The position numbers and the translations under genes are program-made. A DNA stretch of 64,000 nt from assembly GCF_012317585.1 (NCBI RefSeq), contig NZ_CP042909.1, positions 682,001-746,000 on the forward strand, read 5' to 3'. Each line of letters begins with the position of its first letter. Positions within the stretch are counted from its first letter, which is position 1. This document shows positions 45,860 through 54,703 of the stretch, piece after piece. The stretch is from Thermosulfurimonas marina. GTDB lineage: Bacteria > Desulfobacterota > Thermodesulfobacteria > Thermodesulfobacteriales > Thermodesulfobacteriaceae. The notes beneath the pieces are model-generated. The model had not been told where the DNA came from. It was given only the letters and a program-made list of their open reading frames with translations, and ran no database searches.

Positions 45860-46819
45860 CTATTCCGTAAAGAGTTTCAGGCGGGTCTTTTTGAGTTCCT
45901 TTACGGTGCGGAGGGGAAGGTAGTCGGTGAGATGGTGGCGGCGGGCTATCTCCGCAACCCGCTCCTCGGGGGCCTTCCGGGCGTGCAACATGGTGTAAAG
46001 ATTGTAAGGCCAGTCGGGGTAGCTTTCCCTCTCGTAACAATGGGTTATGCCCGGCTCAGAGGCCAGGGCCCGGCCTATCTCCTCCATCCTTTCTTCCGGC
46101 ACCCGCCAGGCCACCATGATGTTTTCCCGGAATCCGGCCCGATGGTGACGCACCAGTCCGGCAAAGCGCCGCATAACCCCTCGCCGGAGCATCTCCCGAA
46201 TCCAGGTGAGGAGTTCCTCCTCCGAGACCCGGGCCTGCCGGGCCACCTCGGAAAAGGGCCGGGGGACAAGGGGCAGAGGCTCCTGGGTGGCCCGCACCAG
46301 CCGGACGGTTCTTTCGTCCGGGATCAGGTTTTCCGAAATCCGGGGAGGCCCTCCATCTCCGGTCACCCCCTCCTCCAGATCAAAGACCACCGCAATGCGA
46401 AAGACCCTCCGGATGGGGAGTATAAGATACCGCCTGGCGGCCGCGGCCCGGGCCAGAGAGGCCAGTTCTTCCTCCAGGTTCCGTCCCGGGGGTACCGCCA
46501 GGGTGAACCAGAGGTTCAGCCGGTGATCCCGCAGGTAGTTATGACTCACCCCCGGGTGGGCATTGATCACCTCTGCGGCCCGAGAGATCCCCTCCTCCGG
46601 TACCTCAAAGGCCGCCAGAGTGGTCCGATAACCCAGGGCCTGGGGATTGAAAATCCCCCCTATCTGGCGCAGGATTCCCTCCTGGGAAAGCCGTTCCAGG
46701 CGGGAAAGGACCTCCGTTTCCGAAAGCCCTAGGCGTTCCCCCAGGAGAGCAAAGGGGCTTTCCTCCAAAGGGAATTCTTTCTGGACCAGGTTAAGGAGCT
46801 TGCGATCTTTCTTATCCAT
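45860..46819 (-). CDS. fused siroheme decarboxylase AhbA-AhbB (NirDL type)
   Basis: The 319-residue protein has two AsnC-type modules. The first contains VSHNYLRDHRLNLWFTLAV (AhbA/NirD-like) and the second THCYERESYPDWPYNLYTML (AhbB/NirL-like), the paired signatures of siroheme decarboxylase. It would convert siroheme to 12,18-didecarboxysiroheme in the alternative heme pathway. I chose the ATG at 46819 (MDKKDRKLLNLVQKEFP), where the winged-helix domain begins; an ATG at 46870 would overlap the start of the divergent DUF362 gene. The ahbC/ahbD radical-SAM genes are not in the window. Confidence 0.85.
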   Translation of the reverse strand: MDKKDRKLLNLVQKEFPLEESPFALLGERLGLSETEVLSRLERLSQEGILRQIGGIFNPQALGYRTTLAAFEVPEEGISRAAEVINAHPGVSHNYLRDHRLNLWFTLAVPPGRNLEEELASLARAAAARRYLILPIRRVFRIAVVFDLEEGVTGDGGPPRISENLIPDERTVRLVRATQEPLPLVPRPFSEVARQARVSEEELLTWIREMLRRGVMRRFAGLVRHHRAGFRENIMVAWRVPEERMEEIGRALASEPGITHCYERESYPDWPYNLYTMLHARKAPEERVAEIARRHHLTDYLPLRTVKELKKTRLKLFTE

Positions 46820-46868
46820 AGCTTTAATAGTAACTGGAAAGCCCGGATCGGGGAAAGGGGGTTTTCTC

Positions 46869-47990
46869 ATGGCGAGCCGCGTCTTCTGGGTGGATCTTCA
46901 TCTAAAAAAGAAGGCCTCCCTTCTGGAAAAGGTTACGGCCCTCCTTTCCGCTCTGGAAATGAAAGGGCGCTTTCGCCCCGGGGCCCTGGTAGGGGTAAAG
47001 CTCCATTTTGGCGAGGCCGGGAACCTGGCTCATCTCCGGCCCCAGTGGGTCCGCCGGGTGGTGGATCATCTGAAAGGCCTGGGGGTCAAACCCTTTCTTA
47101 CCGACACCAACACCCTTTACCGGGGAAGCCGCTCCGATGCGGTAAGTCATCTGGAGACCGCCATCGCCAACGGATTCGATTATGCGGTGGTGGGGGCCCC
47201 CCTTATCGTTGCCGACGGCCTGCGAGGCAATTCCTATGAGCGGGTGGAGATGGATTTCCCGGTGCTCAAGGAGTTTTTCCTAGCCAAGGAGATCGTCCGG
47301 GCCGACGGCCTGGTGGTGCTCACCCACTTCAAGGGCCACGAGCTTTCGGCCTTCGGCGGAGCCCTGAAAAACGTAGGCATGGGGTGTGCCGCCCGCAAGG
47401 GAAAACTCGAGCAACACTCCACCGTGGCCCCGAAGATCGACAAGAAACTCTGTGTAGCCTGTGGGACCTGTGCGGAGTTCTGCCCGGTAGGAGCTCCGGA
47501 GCCGGCGAAAGGGGTGAAAAAACCCCGCTACCGCATTAACGAGAAACGCTGTATCGGTTGCGGAGAATGTATCGCCGTGTGCCCCCAGGAGGCCATCAAG
47601 GTCCAGTGGAACGAAAAAGCCGAACTTTTTATGCGCAAGATGGCCGAATACGCCGCGGCGGTCATCCTTCCCAAGAGAGGAAGAGTCTTTTTTCTCAACT
47701 TCGTCCTTCAGGTCTCTCCGGCCTGTGACTGCTATCCCTTTAACGACTATCCCCTGGTGCCCGACCTGGGTATCCTGGCCTCGGAGGATCCGGTGGCCCT
47801 GGATCAGGCCTCGGTGGATCTGGTCAATCAGGCCGCAGGACTTCCGGGCTCCAAGGTAGAAGCCTGTGGACCGGGAGAGGATAAGTTTCGGCGGCTTTAT
47901 CCGGAATTGCCCTGGGAAATCACCCTGGATCACGCCGAAAAACTGGGCCTGGGAAGCCGGAAATACGAACTGATAAAGCTGGAGGAGTGA
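46869..47990 (+). CDS. DUF362-domain protein with a two-cluster 4Fe-4S ferredoxin insert
   Basis: The 373-residue protein starts at an ATG preceded by GGGGAAAGGGG. It has a DUF362 domain (LVGVKLHFGEAGNLAHLRP, TDTNTLYRGSRSDAVSHLE, ADGLVVLTHFKGHELSAFGG) and a ferredoxin module with two four-cysteine motifs, CVACGTCAEFCP and CIGCGECIAVCP, each able to hold a 4Fe-4S cluster. It is cytoplasmic. The reaction of the family is unknown. It is the first gene of a run that continues with Smr, THEP1-Tmk and a cyclophilin-like gene. Confidence 0.88.
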   Translation: MASRVFWVDLHLKKKASLLEKVTALLSALEMKGRFRPGALVGVKLHFGEAGNLAHLRPQWVRRVVDHLKGLGVKPFLTDTNTLYRGSRSDAVSHLETAIANGFDYAVVGAPLIVADGLRGNSYERVEMDFPVLKEFFLAKEIVRADGLVVLTHFKGHELSAFGGALKNVGMGCAARKGKLEQHSTVAPKIDKKLCVACGTCAEFCPVGAPEPAKGVKKPRYRINEKRCIGCGECIAVCPQEAIKVQWNEKAELFMRKMAEYAAAVILPKRGRVFFLNFVLQVSPACDCYPFNDYPLVPDLGILASEDPVALDQASVDLVNQAAGLPGSKVEACGPGEDKFRRLYPELPWEITLDHAEKLGLGSRKYELIKLEE

Positions 47991-47995
47991 AAACA

Positions 47996-48580
47996 ATGGG
48001 GTTTAGACCCTTTGAGGTCCTCAAGGAAAAGATCCGCAAGGAGGAACTCCCTCCGGGGCCAGAAAGACCCATCTGCGAGGAGGACCCGGAGGAATTCTTT
48101 CGCCAGGTCAAGCCTCTCCGGCCCAAAAAGGAGATCTTCTGGGCCCCGGGGTTCCGGAAGCCTCCGCGTTTTGAAGAGAAGACCTGGCCCCCGGAGCCCC
48201 TGCGGGTGCGGGTCTGGCAGACCTCGGAATACATGGAAGGGCGGGCCCCGGGGGTCACCAAGGAACTCCTGCGCAAGCTCCGGGAGGGACGGATTGCCTG
48301 GAGCCGGGTCCTGGATCTTCACGGCCTTACCGTGGCCGAAGCCGAAGAGGCCTTCCATCAGTTCCTCAGGGAATGCCTCTTTCGGGGAGACCGCTGTGTG
48401 CTCATCATCCACGGTCGGGGTCTTTCCTCTCCGCGAGGGCCGGTCCTTAAAGAAAAGGTGCGCTTCTGGTTGGAAAAGGGGCCCTTAAGGAGGCACGTCC
48501 TGGCCTACGCCACGGCCCGGCCCTGTGACGGTGGGCCCGGAGCCACCTATGTTTTACTTACCCTGAGAAAATGGCGATGA
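47996..48580 (+). CDS. Smr-domain protein
   Basis: The 194-residue protein ends in an Smr domain: RVLDLHGLTVAEAEEAFHQF gives the LDLHG motif and CVLIIHGRGLSSPRGPVLK the HGxG motif. Stand-alone Smr proteins are nucleases or ribosome-rescue factors (SmrB-like) in other bacteria. The N-terminal half is charged and unstructured-looking. The ATG at 47996 has GGAGG 10 bp upstream; a GTG at 47987 overlaps that site. It is 5 bp from the DUF362 gene and overlaps the next gene. Confidence 0.86.
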   Translation: MGFRPFEVLKEKIRKEELPPGPERPICEEDPEEFFRQVKPLRPKKEIFWAPGFRKPPRFEEKTWPPEPLRVRVWQTSEYMEGRAPGVTKELLRKLREGRIAWSRVLDLHGLTVAEAEEAFHQFLRECLFRGDRCVLIIHGRGLSSPRGPVLKEKVRFWLEKGPLRRHVLAYATARPCDGGPGATYVLLTLRKWR

Positions 48581-49692
48581 GACTCCCGGCCCACGGACGA
48601 CGCAAGGTGCTCATCCACGGGCTTCCCGGCACCGGGAAGACCACCCTGATTTCCCGGGTAGTGGAAGACCTTTCCGGGCCCAAACGGGGCTTTATAACCC
48701 GGGAGGTACGCGAGGGCGGGCGGCGGATCGGTTTCAAGATCCACACCCTGGATGGGCGGGAGGCCTGGTTAGCCAGGAAGGGGCGGGGCTGGCCCCAGGT
48801 AGGAAAATATCGGGTCTTCTTGGAGACCTTCGAGAAACTGGCCCTTTCGGCCCTGGCCCCGGCCGAGCCCGGGACCCTCTACGTGGTGGACGAAATCGGC
48901 AAAATGGAGATCTTCTCCGAGGCCTTTCGCCACCGTATCCGGGAGCTCCTTTCCGGCCCGGAACCTCTGCTAGCTTCGGTAGGCTACGGCAAGGTGCCCT
49001 TTCTGGAAGAAATCTTCGAGCTCGAAGGCCCCATCTTCTGTGAGATCACCCCGGAAAACCGGGACTTCCTGGTAAACCGTATCCGGGTGGAGTTTGACCG
49101 TCCGGGAAGACTCCTGGTCTTTGAAGGGCTTGATGGCTCGGGGAAAAGCACCCTGGCCCAGGAGGTGGCCCGGAGGCTCAAGGCCCAGGGCCTTCCGGTA
49201 GTCCTCACCCAGGAGCCCTCCGGCGGAGAATGGGGGCAGAAGATCCGAGAACATCTGACCAAAGGCACTCCTCTTTCTCCCCAGGCCTATGCGGAGCTCT
49301 TTTTTCGGGATCGCTGGGAACACGCAGAAAAGCTCCTTATCCCGGCCCTCCTCCAGGGCAAAATCATTCTCTGCGACCGTTACTACCCCTCTACTCTGGC
49401 CTATCAGGGAAGTCAGGGGCTTTCCCTGCAGGGACTCTGGCGGCGGAACGAGACCGTAGCCCCGGTCCCGGATCTGGTAGTCTTTGTGGATCTTCCCCTG
49501 GAAGAGGCCCTGCAACGAATTAAAAGGCGGGGACAAGGGCGGGAAGCTTTTGAGACCCCGGAAAGGCTTGCGGCCATTTCCCGCCTCTACGAAGACCTTC
49601 TTCCCCGCTTCCGGCATTTGAGGGTTTTCGGCAGAGAACCCCTGGAGAAACTGGTAGAGGAGGTCCTCCATGCCCTATCCCATCTGGATTGA
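48571..49692 (+). CDS. THEP1-type NTPase fused to thymidylate kinase
   Basis: One 373-residue frame joins two P-loop enzymes. Residues about 10-165 are a THEP1/NTPase_1 domain: Walker A LIHGLPGTGKTTLISRV, KRGFITREVREGGRRIGF and Walker B LYVVDEIGKMEIFS. Residues about 180-373 are thymidylate kinase: LLVFEGLDGSGKSTLAQEV, the CDRYYPSTLAYQG motif, FVDLPLEEALQRIKRRG with the LID arginines, and FETPERLAA. The usual dTMP-loop TREPG is here LTQEPSGG. The linker is only a few residues long and has no start codon. An ATG at 48577 (ATGA overlap with smr) is an equally good start. No other tmk is in the window. Confidence 0.9.
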   Translation: MAMRLPAHGRRKVLIHGLPGTGKTTLISRVVEDLSGPKRGFITREVREGGRRIGFKIHTLDGREAWLARKGRGWPQVGKYRVFLETFEKLALSALAPAEPGTLYVVDEIGKMEIFSEAFRHRIRELLSGPEPLLASVGYGKVPFLEEIFELEGPIFCEITPENRDFLVNRIRVEFDRPGRLLVFEGLDGSGKSTLAQEVARRLKAQGLPVVLTQEPSGGEWGQKIREHLTKGTPLSPQAYAELFFRDRWEHAEKLLIPALLQGKIILCDRYYPSTLAYQGSQGLSLQGLWRRNETVAPVPDLVVFVDLPLEEALQRIKRRGQGREAFETPERLAAISRLYEDLLPRFRHLRVFGREPLEKLVEEVLHALSHLD

Positions 49693-50044
49693 GATCGGAG
49701 GCCTCAAGCTTAAAGCAGAACTTGCCGAGACCGAATGTGCCCGCCGGATCTATGAGGCCCTGCCCCTGGAGGCCGAGGTCCAGGAGTGGGGAGACGAGTT
49801 TTACTTCCGGGTACCCGTAGAATGTGAACCCGACGAGACTTACACCCTGAAGGTGAGGGCCGGAGATCTTGGCTACTGGCCTCCGGGCCGCGCCCTGGCC
49901 CTCTTTTTCGGGCCCACCCCGGCCTCCACCGGCCCGGACCCTGTACCCGCAAGCGAGGTCAACCTGGTAGGACGCCTCCTGGACGACCCTTCCCGCCTTA
50001 GAGAGGTCAAGGGCACAAGCCGCATCCGCCTGGAAAAAAGATAG
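49670..50044 (+). CDS. cyclophilin-like fold protein (TM1367 family)
   Basis: The 124-residue protein matches the small cyclophilin-like family (PF04126) by its start IWIEIGGLKLKAELAETECA, WGDEFYFRVPVECEPDE, the WPPGRALALFFGPTP stretch and the length. Members have a cyclophilin-like barrel but no proven PPIase activity. It overlaps the THEP1-Tmk gene by 23 bp and ends the operon that begins with DUF362. Confidence 0.8.
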   Translation: MPYPIWIEIGGLKLKAELAETECARRIYEALPLEAEVQEWGDEFYFRVPVECEPDETYTLKVRAGDLGYWPPGRALALFFGPTPASTGPDPVPASEVNLVGRLLDDPSRLREVKGTSRIRLEKR

Positions 50045-50068: not shown

Positions 50069-50103
50069 TTTGAATTAGCATTCAAAATATGAACAGGCGT
50101 TCA
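50069..50103 (+). promoter_or_regulatory. tandem palindromic operator over the tetR start
   Basis: Two inverted repeats with 4-nt centres stand 19 bp apart: TTTGAAT-TAGC-ATTCAAA (50069-50086) and TGAAC-AGGC-GTTCA (50090-50103). Both fit the TGAAN-N4-NTTCA form common to TetR operators. The first covers the likely -10 region (TTGACC at 50052 is a possible -35) and the second includes the last two bases of the ATG. Autorepression is the simplest reading. Confidence 0.7.
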
Positions 50104-50694
50104 AAGAAGGCCCTCCGGGCCGAGCTACGCCGGGAGATCCTAGCCGCGGCCCTTTCCGTCTTTTCCGAGAAGGGCTTTCACGGGGCGCGCATGGTGGACA
50201 TCGCCCGGAGGGCCGGGGTGGCCGTAGGGACCCTTTACCAGTTCTTCTCCGGAAAGGCGGACCTCTACCAGACCCTGCTCGAAGAGGTGGCCCGGCGGAT
50301 CCACGGGCGGGTTCTTGCGGTCCTCAGGAAGGAGGCCCCGGTCCTTCCCCTCCTCCGGGAATTCCTGACGGTGAAACTTGCGGCCCTTGAGGAAAACCAG
50401 GACATCCTGGGCCTCCACCTACGGGAGGTCTGGGAGGCTCGTTTCCAGGGGGTAAGGGCTCGGGTACTTCCGGAACTTTATGAAGAGTATCTTTCGGCCC
50501 TAGGGGAGGTTCTTTCTCGTCTTCCCCATCCCCTTTCCTCAAGACCCCGGCTCTACGCCGCCCTGGTGGACGGGGTGATCGCCACCGCGGTGGTGGAGGC
50601 CCTGGAGGGGCGGAGTCCTTTCCCCACCGCCAAAGACCTCTGGCCTCTCCTTACCCGGGCTCTAATCCCCGAGGAGGAAGCCCATGCCCCCTAA
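50089..50694 (+). CDS. TetR/AcrR-family transcriptional regulator of the efflux operon
   Basis: The 201-residue protein has the TetR N-terminal helix-turn-helix (EILAAALSVFSEKGFHGARM, then VDIARRAGVAVGTLYQFFSG) and a variable ligand-binding C-terminal domain. The ATG lies inside one of two palindromes, has no visible ribosome-binding site, and lies less than 10 bp after the likely -10 box, so translation may be leaderless. It overlaps the following membrane-fusion gene by 11 bp and probably represses the whole operon. Confidence 0.9.
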   Translation: MNRRSKKALRAELRREILAAALSVFSEKGFHGARMVDIARRAGVAVGTLYQFFSGKADLYQTLLEEVARRIHGRVLAVLRKEAPVLPLLREFLTVKLAALEENQDILGLHLREVWEARFQGVRARVLPELYEEYLSALGEVLSRLPHPLSSRPRLYAALVDGVIATAVVEALEGRSPFPTAKDLWPLLTRALIPEEEAHAP

Positions 50695-51820
50695 GCATCG
50701 CCGTCTGGCGGTGGCGGTATTGGCCTTCTTTTTTCTCCTCCTGCTGGCCCTTCTGGCCCGGTTTCTCTGGCATCGGCACCTTTACGCCGTCACCAACGCC
50801 GTTTTCGTGGAGACCGATTCCTTGGCCCTGGTCTCCTTTGACCAGGTGGGGGGCCGGATCAGGAAACTTTTAAAGGAGGAAGGAGAGCCGGTCTCCGCCG
50901 GAGAGCTTCTCGCCGCTCTGGACGAGACCACCTATGCCCTGAAGGCCAAGACCCTAGAGGAAAATCTTGGGGCACTGAAGAGAAAGGCCGAGGCCCTCAG
51001 GATCGAAATTCGGCGTCTAACCCGGGAGATTGCCTTACGGGAGGCCCAGGCCGGCCACGAGATAGAACGCCTCTCTGCCGAAAGAGAGGCGGTGGAAGGG
51101 GAGAGGGCGGCCCTTTCGGCTCAACTCTCCCAGGCCGAACGCGACCGCCAACGCTTCGAAAGACTATGGCGGGAGGGTCTGGTGGCCCGCCATCGTTTCG
51201 AAGAGGTGGCCACCCAGGCCGCCACCCTCCGAGAAAGATACCGGGCCCTCACCGCCCGCCGGGCCGCCCTTGCCGCCGCCATACGGGCGGCAGAAAAAGA
51301 AAAGGCCCGGGCCCGGAACCAGCGCAAACTCATTCAAGAGAAGAAAAAGGAACTTGCGGCCCTTGAAGCCCGGATCCGGGCCCAGGAGAAGGCCTTGGCC
51401 GAGGCCCGGGTCCTCCTTTCTTACTGCAAACTTAAAAGCCCCACCTCCGGCTACATCGCCAAACGCTTTCACACCGTAGGTGATGTGGTGGGCCCGGGAG
51501 AGCCGGTTTATGCCGTGGTGGACTTCTCCAAGCTTTATATCCTGGTCCTCCTCGAAGAGAACAAACTCCGGGGGGTAAAGCCGGGCTGTGAGGCCCGCAT
51601 CCGGATCGATGCTTACCCGGGAAAGGAATTCCGCGGAGTGGTCACCGCGGTGCTCCCGGCCACCGCAGCCAAGTTCGCCCTGGTTCCCCGGGACATCTCC
51701 GCCGGAGAATTCACCAAAGTGGCCCAGAGGGTCCCGGTAAAGATCCGCCTCACTCAAGGGCCGGTAGAGCTTCTGCGCGTGGGTCTCGGGGGTGAGGTGG
51801 AGATCCGGAGGGATCTCTGA
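50684..51820 (+). CDS. HlyD/EmrA-family membrane fusion protein of efflux pump
   Basis: The 378-residue protein has one N-terminal membrane anchor (LAVAVLAFFFLLLLALLARF), a biotinyl-lipoyl-like half (GGRIRKLLKEEGEPVSAGEL), a long coiled-coil hairpin rich in Ala, Arg and Glu (residues about 95-235), and the returning barrel (LKSPTSGYIAKRFHTVGDVV). It bridges the inner-membrane transporter and the outer-membrane channel. The stop overlaps the MFS start by 1 bp. Confidence 0.91.
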   Translation: MPPKHRRLAVAVLAFFFLLLLALLARFLWHRHLYAVTNAVFVETDSLALVSFDQVGGRIRKLLKEEGEPVSAGELLAALDETTYALKAKTLEENLGALKRKAEALRIEIRRLTREIALREAQAGHEIERLSAEREAVEGERAALSAQLSQAERDRQRFERLWREGLVARHRFEEVATQAATLRERYRALTARRAALAAAIRAAEKEKARARNQRKLIQEKKKELAALEARIRAQEKALAEARVLLSYCKLKSPTSGYIAKRFHTVGDVVGPGEPVYAVVDFSKLYILVLLEENKLRGVKPGCEARIRIDAYPGKEFRGVVTAVLPATAAKFALVPRDISAGEFTKVAQRVPVKIRLTQGPVELLRVGLGGEVEIRRDL

Positions 51821-53394
51821 TGGCCGAAGTCCCGACTTCTTCCGGTTTTTACTATCCGGTTCCCACCCTGGATCGGGTGCTCATCACCTTTATCGTTATG
51901 GCCGGCTTTTTCATGGCCATTCTGGACACCACCATCGTGGACGTGGTGGTGCCCAAAATGATGGGGCCCCTTTCCACGGACCTTTACGGCATCCAGTGGG
52001 TGATCACCTCTTATATGACCGCGGCCGCCGTGGGGCTTATCTTCGTGGTCTCCCTGGCCCCGGCCGTAGGCTATGCCCGCACCTTCCTTTTCGGCCTGGC
52101 CCTCTTTACCTTCTCCTCGGCCATGTGCGGGATGAGCCACTCCCTGGCCTCCATGGTCTTCTGGCGGATAGCCCAGGGTCTGGGAGAATCCTTTATCACC
52201 GCCTCGGCCCAGACCATACTCCTGGCCGTCTATCCCCGGGAGCGTCACGGGCTGGCTATGGGGATCTTCGGGCTGGGGGTAAGCTTTGCCCCGGCCCTGG
52301 GGCCCACTCTGGGAGGGTTCCTCACCGAACACCTTTCCTGGCGCTGGGTCTTTTATGTGAATCTTCCCGTAGGGATTCTGAATCTGCTGGCCGGGCTCTT
52401 TTTCCTGCCCCGGGGTCTGGGAAAGAGCGGCCGTTTTACCTTCAACCCCCTGAGCTACCTCTTTCTTTCCACTTTCACCGTCTCCCTTCTGGTGCTTCTG
52501 GCCAAGGGGCAGCAGCTCGGCTGGTTTCAGTCGCAACTTATCGGGCTCCTGGGCTTCGTAGCCCTACTTTCCCTTCTGGCCTATCTCATAAGTGAGCTCC
52601 TTTCCCGGCGTCCCCTCCTTGATCTTTCCATCTACCTCATTCCCAGTTTCGGGTTTACCATGGCCTACCATTTCTTCGTCCTGGGCTTTTCCATGTACCA
52701 GATCTTCTATCTCCTTCCCCTTTATTATGAAAACCTCAAGGGACTCACCACCTTTCAGGCCGGACTCCACATGCTGGCCTTTGCGGCCTTCATCGGGCTT
52801 TTTTCCGTGATCTCCGGGGCCCTGAGCGATCGCTTTCGCCCGGAGTATCTCCTCCTGGTGAGCTTTCTCATCTATTCCTTCTGTTCCCTCTTTCTTCTCC
52901 CGCGGCTTAACTACTACACTCCGGCCCTTACCGCGGCCCTCTATACCGTACCCCTGGGAATAGCCATGGGGACCTTCTTCCCTCCCCTTACCCGGATCAC
53001 CCTTTCGGGCCTCGGGCCGCGCACCGGCCTGGGAGTGGTCCTCCTTCACTACCAGCGCTTTATCGGAGGTTCCTTCGGCACCGCCCTGGCCACCAATACC
53101 CTCACCTACCGCACGGATTTTCACTTCCAGGAGCTCACCGCCCTCCAGAATCCGGCCCTGGTGGAGAGGGCCCTTCGCCAGGGAAAGGCCTTCCTGGAGC
53201 CCTATTTTCCTTCGGCTCTGGCCCTTCACAAGGCCAAGGCCCTCTTTTTCGGGGTGGAAAGGCTCTACGCCACAAGCTGGGCCTTTCAGGACACCTTCCG
53301 GCGCACCTACTACTGGGCCCTTATCGGAGCGCTCTTCCTGATGATCCTCTTTTTCCGGACCCTGCGCCAGGAGATGGGGAAAGTGGGGGGGTGA
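51820..53394 (+). CDS. EmrB/QacA-type MFS drug transporter (DHA2, 14 helices)
   Basis: The 524-residue inner-membrane protein has about 14 hydrophobic segments and the DHA2 motif LDTTIVDVVVPKM in the first helix, followed by GIQWVITSYMTAAA and the motif C-like GVSFAPALGPTLGGFL. With the EmrA-like and TolC-like partners next to it, it would export hydrophobic compounds across both membranes using the proton gradient. Substrates cannot be inferred. The arrangement is the emrAB-tolC type. Confidence 0.93.
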   Translation: MAEVPTSSGFYYPVPTLDRVLITFIVMAGFFMAILDTTIVDVVVPKMMGPLSTDLYGIQWVITSYMTAAAVGLIFVVSLAPAVGYARTFLFGLALFTFSSAMCGMSHSLASMVFWRIAQGLGESFITASAQTILLAVYPRERHGLAMGIFGLGVSFAPALGPTLGGFLTEHLSWRWVFYVNLPVGILNLLAGLFFLPRGLGKSGRFTFNPLSYLFLSTFTVSLLVLLAKGQQLGWFQSQLIGLLGFVALLSLLAYLISELLSRRPLLDLSIYLIPSFGFTMAYHFFVLGFSMYQIFYLLPLYYENLKGLTTFQAGLHMLAFAAFIGLFSVISGALSDRFRPEYLLLVSFLIYSFCSLFLLPRLNYYTPALTAALYTVPLGIAMGTFFPPLTRITLSGLGPRTGLGVVLLHYQRFIGGSFGTALATNTLTYRTDFHFQELTALQNPALVERALRQGKAFLEPYFPSALALHKAKALFFGVERLYATSWAFQDTFRRTYYWALIGALFLMILFFRTLRQEMGKVGG

Positions 53395-53398
53395 AAAC

Positions 53399-54703
53399 TT
53401 GAGGACCCTTCTTTTCTGGATCCTGCTTTGGGGAGCCCTCGCCGGATCGGTCCTTGCCGAATCCCCGGTCCTTACCCTTAAGGAGTGCGAAAAGTTAGCT
53501 CTATCCCGATATCCGGCGCTTAAGGCCGCACTTTTCCAGAAAGAAGCGGCTCAGGCCCGGGAAAAGGCGGCCTTTCGAGAGCACCTTCCTAAGCTTTACG
53601 GCACTTACGAGTATCGGGCCTATCGCGACCCCGAACTGATCAAGACTCCCTTCGGGGCTTATCCCTTAAGGGATCGAGAGGAAGCCCTCCTGGCCATCAC
53701 CGTAAGGCTTCCCGTATTTCACGGGCTGGCCATCTCCACCCGACAGGCCCTGGCCAAACTCCGGGTACGGCTTTCCGCGGTAGAAGAGGCCCGGCTCCGG
53801 CAGGAGATCCTCCTCAAGGTGCGGGAGGCCTATTTCGGTCTGGTAGAGGCGGAAAAAGAGGTGGAGCTGGCCCGAAAGTCGCTAGCCCGACGCCGGGCCC
53901 ATCTCAAGGACGTCCGCGGATTTTTGCGGCAGGGACTGGTGGCCCGCAACCAGCTCCTTGAGGCCGAAGCCCAGGTAGAAGAGGCCCGCTATCGGGTTGC
54001 CGCTGCGGAAAGCCGGCTGGCCGTGGCCCGGGCCCGGCTCAATCTCCTCCTTCAGCGCCCCCTTTCGGCCCCCTTGAAGGTGGTCCCGGAGTTTCCCCAG
54101 CGGCCGTTAAAGGCCTCCTGCGAAAACCTGGTGAAATCAGCCTTTGAGCACCGCCCGGAGGTGCGGGCCGCCGAACTGGCCATAAGAATGCGGGAAAAGG
54201 AGGTGCGGCTGGCCCGCAGCCGCTACTTTCCCTGGCTGGACCTGGAGGCCCAGTACTACAAGCGGGGGGACACCTTCGCTCTTTCCGAAAACCCTTACGG
54301 CGACCGGGAAAACGCCTGGGTGGGACTCTCCCTGAACTGGGAGATCTGGGACTGGGGCCTCCGAGGCCAGGAGGTAGCGGCCGCCCGGGCGGAACTTGCG
54401 GCCCAGAAGTTTCTTCTGCAAGAAGTGAAGGACCAGGTGGCCCTAGAGGTGAAGGAGGCCTATCTCCAGCTTCGCGCCGCCCGGCGGCAGGTGGAGGCGG
54501 CCCGCAAGGGGGTGGCCGCGGCCCGGGAAAACTTCCGCCTGGTGCGGGCCCGCTTTCGGGAAGGTCTTTCCGACACCACGGAGGTCATGGACGCCGAAAC
54601 CCTGCTCCTCCAGGCTGAAACCCATGAAGTCTCCGCTCTTTCCGCTTACGAAATAGCCCGGGCCCGCCTGGCCCACGCCGTAGGCCTTCCCGACCTGCCC
54701 TGA
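53399..54703 (+). CDS. TolC-family outer-membrane efflux channel
   Basis: The 434-residue protein starts at a TTG 4 bp after the MFS stop. It has a signal peptide (LLFWILLWGALAGSVLAES) and two related outer-membrane efflux repeats (LTLKECEKLALSRYPALKA and FEHRPEVRAAELAIRMREKE), each followed by long Ala/Arg/Glu-rich helices, as in TolC. GLSLNWEIWDWGLRG is the conserved strand motif of the second repeat. It is the last gene of the tetR-emrA-emrB-tolC unit. Confidence 0.92.
   Translation: MRTLLFWILLWGALAGSVLAESPVLTLKECEKLALSRYPALKAALFQKEAAQAREKAAFREHLPKLYGTYEYRAYRDPELIKTPFGAYPLRDREEALLAITVRLPVFHGLAISTRQALAKLRVRLSAVEEARLRQEILLKVREAYFGLVEAEKEVELARKSLARRRAHLKDVRGFLRQGLVARNQLLEAEAQVEEARYRVAAAESRLAVARARLNLLLQRPLSAPLKVVPEFPQRPLKASCENLVKSAFEHRPEVRAAELAIRMREKEVRLARSRYFPWLDLEAQYYKRGDTFALSENPYGDRENAWVGLSLNWEIWDWGLRGQEVAAARAELAAQKFLLQEVKDQVALEVKEAYLQLRAARRQVEAARKGVAAARENFRLVRARFREGLSDTTEVMDAETLLLQAETHEVSALSAYEIARARLAHAVGLPDLP

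Follow-up and report, generated by a model that had tools for sequence, protein, structure and literature searches.

Organization of the locus

The window, a 64,000-nucleotide stretch of the genome of Thermosulfurimonas marina, contains on its plus strand a single uninterrupted reading frame of 373 codons (48571–49692), in which a THEP1-type NTPase domain is followed, without a stop codon or gap, by a thymidylate kinase (Tmk) domain. The preliminary description gave the protein 373 residues, which holds for the frame; however, translation probably begins at the second ATG, at 48577, which gives 371 amino acids. This start is favoured because the ATGA at 48577–48580 overlaps the stop of the upstream smr gene and because a methionine is aligned at the position of residue 3 in many fused relatives. 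The features of the locus are as follows.

47987–48580, plus strand: Smr-domain gene, upstream, overlapping the fusion start (PF01713, E 3e-24)
48571–49692, plus strand: fused THEP1-Tmk gene, 373 codons as listed; probable start ATG 48577 (371 aa)
48604–49083, plus strand: THEP1 NTPase domain, residues 12–171 (PF03266, E 7.6e-45; aligns with 1YE8 and 2I3B)
48619–48642, plus strand: THEP1 Walker A, GLPGTGKT, residues 17–24
48889–48909, plus strand: THEP1 Walker B, DEIGKME, residues 107–113
49060–49110, plus strand: junction, residues 164–180; the end helix of THEP1 continues into the first Tmk strand
49111–49656, plus strand: thymidylate kinase domain, residues 181–362 (PF02223, E 1.8e-46; TIGR00041; Foldseek to Thermus and Aquifex Tmk)
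49123–49149, plus strand: Tmk P-loop, EGLDGSGKS, residues 185–193
49207–49236, plus strand: Tmk substrate loop, TQEPSGGEWG, residues 213–222
49375–49410, plus strand: Tmk DRYYPSTLAYQG motif, residues 269–280
49670–50044, plus strand: cyclophilin-like gene, downstream, overlapping the 3′ end of the fusion (PF04126, E 1.9e-37)

The cyclophilin-like gene adjoins the fusion in close relatives only, and a promoter and terminator scan around the fusion gave no useful operon boundary. Two further regions of the window were recorded. A 336-aa open reading frame on the minus strand (45860–46870) appears by eye to consist of two tandem AsnC/Lrp-type halves, and presumably resembles a fused AhbA-AhbB siroheme decarboxylase. 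Downstream of the fusion, an apparent efflux cluster on the plus strand (50089–54703) comprises a TetR-like regulator, an HlyD-like adaptor, an MFS transporter and a TolC-like protein, the families being assigned by eye; the same gene order is found in locus L033.

Identity and integrity of the two domains

Pfam places NTPase_1 (residues 12–171) and Thymidylate_kin (residues 184–348) in the same protein, with E-values of 7.6e-45 and 1.8e-46, respectively. The PF03266 match scores 153.2 bits against a cut-off of 23.9 and covers profile positions 1–167 of 168, and the NCBIfam THEP1 equivalog NF010248 is matched at 153 bits, approximately 3 bits below its cut-off of 156. For the C-terminal domain, PF02223 is matched at 158.6 bits (cut-off 27) and TIGR00041, dTMP_kinase, at 152.9 bits (cut-off 83.25). 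A thymidine kinase family is absent among the best 25 of the 31 Pfam matches, the N-terminal domain being NTPase_1. Both sets of Walker A and B motifs are intact. The preliminary description had thus correctly recognized a THEP1 and a Tmk domain, two P-loop enzymes with intact Walker motifs, in one gap-free protein.

For comparison, 36 fused proteins were aligned, with identities to the window protein of 38–78%. The THEP1 Walker A motif and the DEIGKME motif with its catalytic glutamate are invariant in the fused and free THEP1 members compared, and E108 of the fusion aligns with the catalytic E107 of the Aquifex enzyme aaTHEP1 (PMC1079890). The Tmk P-loop, the EP loop and the DR(Y/F) motif (DRYY) are invariant or nearly so in the 36 fused proteins. 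The dTMP loop, TQEPSGG, had earlier been singled out as altered; the variant is real but ordinary for this Tmk clade and not significant, since fused relatives carry R, Q, F, S, C, Y, E or A immediately before EP, and the unfused Tmk of related bacteria in the phylum usually have EP(T/S) in this loop.

Distribution of the fusion

The window genome, which is complete in one contig (1.76 Mb, 99.96% complete), contains one match to PF02223 and one to PF03266, both in the fusion gene, which is therefore its only recognizable tmk and its only THEP1 gene. Among 41 genomes of Thermodesulfobacteriales, an order of thermophilic sulfur bacteria, tmk is present in 38, and the gene is fused in all 38 of these, including G001, in which it is cut by a contig end. 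The relatives with names belong to Thermosulfurimonas, Thermodesulfatator and Thermodesulfobacterium. The three genomes without tmk are all incomplete: G015 (91% complete) shows no fusion match, G029 (70%) contains a fusion fragment near a contig end, and the third is G021 (72%). Neither a second canonical tmk in the window genome nor a lack of conservation, which the preliminary description had named together as signs of a chance or decaying fusion, was found. The genome G028, with 6% contamination, additionally encodes a free, very divergent 194-aa Tmk-like protein (L108:4002–4583), either a paralogue or a contaminant.

In 395 genomes sampled across the phylum, both intact domains were spanned, among the matches listed, only within Thermodesulfobacteriales, and elsewhere the domains are separate. 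A match in G284 over residues 69–365 was considered as a fusion outside the order, but at this locus (L077) the Tmk is free and follows an unrelated gene. When 84,980 species genomes were scanned by a method that relies on short exact patterns, fusions came only from this class, and other phyla gave only free THEP1. No match covering 80% of the fusion query was obtained from plasmids and phages, and none of the best 80 viral loci in a search of viral contigs contained a match spanning both domains. The long open frames around unfused Tmk or THEP1 matches at L069, L089 and L106 carry no Pfam domain beyond P-loop families. A literature search found no description of a THEP1–thymidylate kinase fusion, although domain-architecture databases may list one.

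Free THEP1 occurs in many genomes without any link to tmk, and across the remainder of the phylum the two proteins are each common in free form, with no linkage between them; Tmk is therefore not the universal covalent partner of THEP1, a point that weighs against the coupled-switch reading discussed below. Outside the order, free THEP1 is often found beside a gene of approximately 370 aa encoding a radical-SAM protein, a possible clue to THEP1 function. These neighbours are located at L049:2267–3370, L095:1496–2602, L096:1122–2264, L094:3029–4138 and L055:2777–3880, and the one in L094 is spore photoproduct lyase-like.

Origin of the fusion

The Tmk tree groups the fused Tmk domains in a single clade (SH-aLRT 97), next to which stand unfused Tmk from other lineages of the phylum. 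A single origin is also compatible with the data for the fused THEP1 domains (p-AU 0.87); a separate origin for the THEP1 domain of L065, which a quick tree placed apart on a long branch, was considered and set aside, since the one-clade tree is likelier and is not rejected by the same test. In 33 of the 34 distinct fused loci that extend far enough, the gene immediately upstream of the fusion is smr, the exception being L024. It also immediately precedes tmk, without an intervening THEP1, in the nine unfused genomes nearest the fused clade in the Tmk tree; among these nine, a full-length THEP1 match at another place in the genome is present only in G165 and G408. A Smr-domain gene is thus a conserved immediate neighbour of tmk in this part of the phylum, whether or not THEP1 is present, as in the window (47987–48580) and in L069, L071–L074, L079, L080, L114 and L119.

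Because smr directly precedes tmk in the closest lineages without the fusion, THEP1 appears to have entered between the two genes; the simplest history is a single in-frame insertion into an ancestral smr-tmk pair, at or before the base of the order. An origin from an adjacent THEP1-tmk pair was also considered, but no such adjacency occurs in the related loci examined, and the ancestral pair looks like smr-tmk. Judged from sequence, the fusion is a single-origin, vertically inherited two-enzyme protein of Thermodesulfobacteriales, made from two families that were already known.

Selection and the junction

Pairwise dN/dS values of approximately 0.02–0.25 in both domains indicate purifying selection, and among near relatives conservation is higher in the THEP1 half than in the Tmk half (88% vs. 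71%, to L004). The retention of the motifs together with purifying selection on both domains refutes the idea that either is a decaying or passenger domain. The earlier proposal of a functional fusion is thereby supported, as it also is by the sole-tmk status and the order-wide conservation described above.

Between the domains, the 36 aligned fused proteins show zero insertions or deletions, so that the length of the junction is fixed. Within it, R170, E174, F175 and R177 are kept in 36, 36, 35 and 36 of the 36 fusions, respectively, versus 3, 4, 3 and 3 of 35 free THEP1 tails. An AlphaFold2 model built from the 36-row alignment of fused proteins only is a well-ordered two-domain prediction (mean pLDDT 93.1, pTM 0.90), with values of 93–96 at the junction; the high whole-chain pTM suggests that the domains hold a defined mutual orientation. 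The conservation of the junction may, however, reflect a need for correct folding or for heat stability and not a role in signalling.

Function of the fusion protein

Tmk converts dTMP and ATP to dTDP and ADP, and the product of ndk makes dTTP from dTDP. As the only recognizable tmk product, the fusion protein very probably supplies the dTMP kinase activity of these cells. The ndk gene is present in the window genome and in 10 of 12 relatives, on which ground the idea that THEP1 stands in for NDK was rejected.

The role of the N-terminal domain is considered from the arrangement itself: an active-looking THEP1 P-loop ATPase/GTPase would be held at the N-terminus of Tmk by a junction of fixed length. 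The THEP1 domain may act as a slow nucleotide-driven switch and not as a bulk consumer of nucleotides, its nucleotide-bound or free state being relayed by the junction helix to Tmk, as a single domain or as a dimer, where it would tune Tmk activity or partner binding. The hypothesis of a regulatory ATPase domain acting on Tmk, one of the two roles proposed in the preliminary description, is favoured by the fixed-length, fusion-specific junction. The hydrolysis of ATP and GTP by aaTHEP1 proceeds at only 5–9 × 10^-3 per second (PMC1079890), approximately one turnover per two to three minutes; the coupled slow switch is preferred because this turnover would hardly suffice for pool management and because ndk is present. 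The reading as a whole, a single-origin fusion that is the sole dTMP kinase and carries THEP1 as a coupled slow switch, is ranked first, with a probability that we place slightly short of even.

Ranked second, and a serious contender, is the explanation that two independent enzymes are tethered for co-expression, each with its own job, that of THEP1 being, for example, RNA or protein modification; the fusion would have been fixed once by chance and retained since both domains are needed. The single origin of the fusion fits this explanation, as do the prevalence of unlinked free THEP1 and free Tmk across the rest of the phylum and the frequent location of free THEP1 beside radical-SAM or methyltransferase genes and not tmk. 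The fixed length and near-invariant fusion-specific residues of the junction nevertheless exceed the needs of a mere tether, and no re-splitting is seen in 35 aligned relatives across 38–78% identity.

The other role proposed in the preliminary description, that of a combined nucleotide-pool enzyme, ranks third and is improbable. THEP1 would here remove unwanted NTPs or dNTPs in a house-cleaning function, or supply a step beside dTMP phosphorylation, and it is true that both domains handle nucleotides and that THEP1 hydrolyses ATP and GTP in vitro; against this stand the low rate given above, the presence of ndk, and the assignment of aaTHEP1 to the ASCE-class ATPases and not to the kinases, no kinase activity having been detected (PMC1079890). 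That the fusion is accidental, decaying or an artefact (of misassembly or of a lost stop codon), perhaps accompanied by a free Tmk translated from an internal start, can hardly be correct: near relatives do share with the window a GTG (V173) at the junction, but this codon is not kept throughout the order and nothing resembling a Shine-Dalgarno sequence was seen ahead of it, and the fusion occurs order-wide in independent assemblies, with both domains under purifying selection and no second tmk in the window genome.

The coupled-switch reading bears on the THEP1/NTPCR family, which occurs in archaea, thermophilic bacteria and animals, humans included. For THEP1 (human NTPCR, or HCR-NTPase), published work gives structures and a slow NTPase activity but no known cellular function (PMC1079890, PMC2700126). 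Its stable union with an essential enzyme of DNA-precursor synthesis, as the sole tmk order-wide and with a specific junction, provides a genomic clue to that function, and one that can be tested directly on a single, presumably thermostable protein. If the switch reading is true, the fusion reveals a first physiological partner of the family; this stronger claim, that THEP1 is a nucleotide-driven switch controlling dTMP kinase in the order and that Tmk is that first partner, is speculative and, in our estimate, rather doubtful.

Comparison with known proteins

A thymidylate kinase to which a P-loop ATPase of another class is attached would be unusual. The TK-TMK chimera of White spot syndrome virus, the only viral match of similar reach that was inspected, likewise combines an N-terminal nucleotide enzyme with Tmk at a similar length, but its N-terminal part is a thymidine kinase, in contrast to the THEP1 domain of the fusion, and the Tmk activity of the viral protein has not been demonstrated (PMC3496565). 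The long structural match between the two proteins has an rmsd of 21 Å, and the domain arrangement thus differs.

Compared with the bacterial Tmk of Thermus thermophilus (5X7J/5X8A), Aquifex (2PBR) and Thermotoga (3HJN), the fusion has the complete fold and motifs, its Tmk half showing 30–39% identity and TM-scores of approximately 0.85–0.9 by target length. These structures are without a second N-terminal P-loop ATPase, whereas the fusion has one, and among the PDB matches listed by Foldseek none covers both domains. Residues 12–170 align over the whole domain with THEP1/COG1618 members (Aquifex aq_1292, 1YE8; human HCR-NTPase/NTPCR, 2I3B), with which Walker A, DEIGKME and the catalytic glutamate are shared. 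The known members of this family are single-domain proteins, whereas in the fusion the C-terminal helix enters Tmk directly, with residues specific to the fusion.
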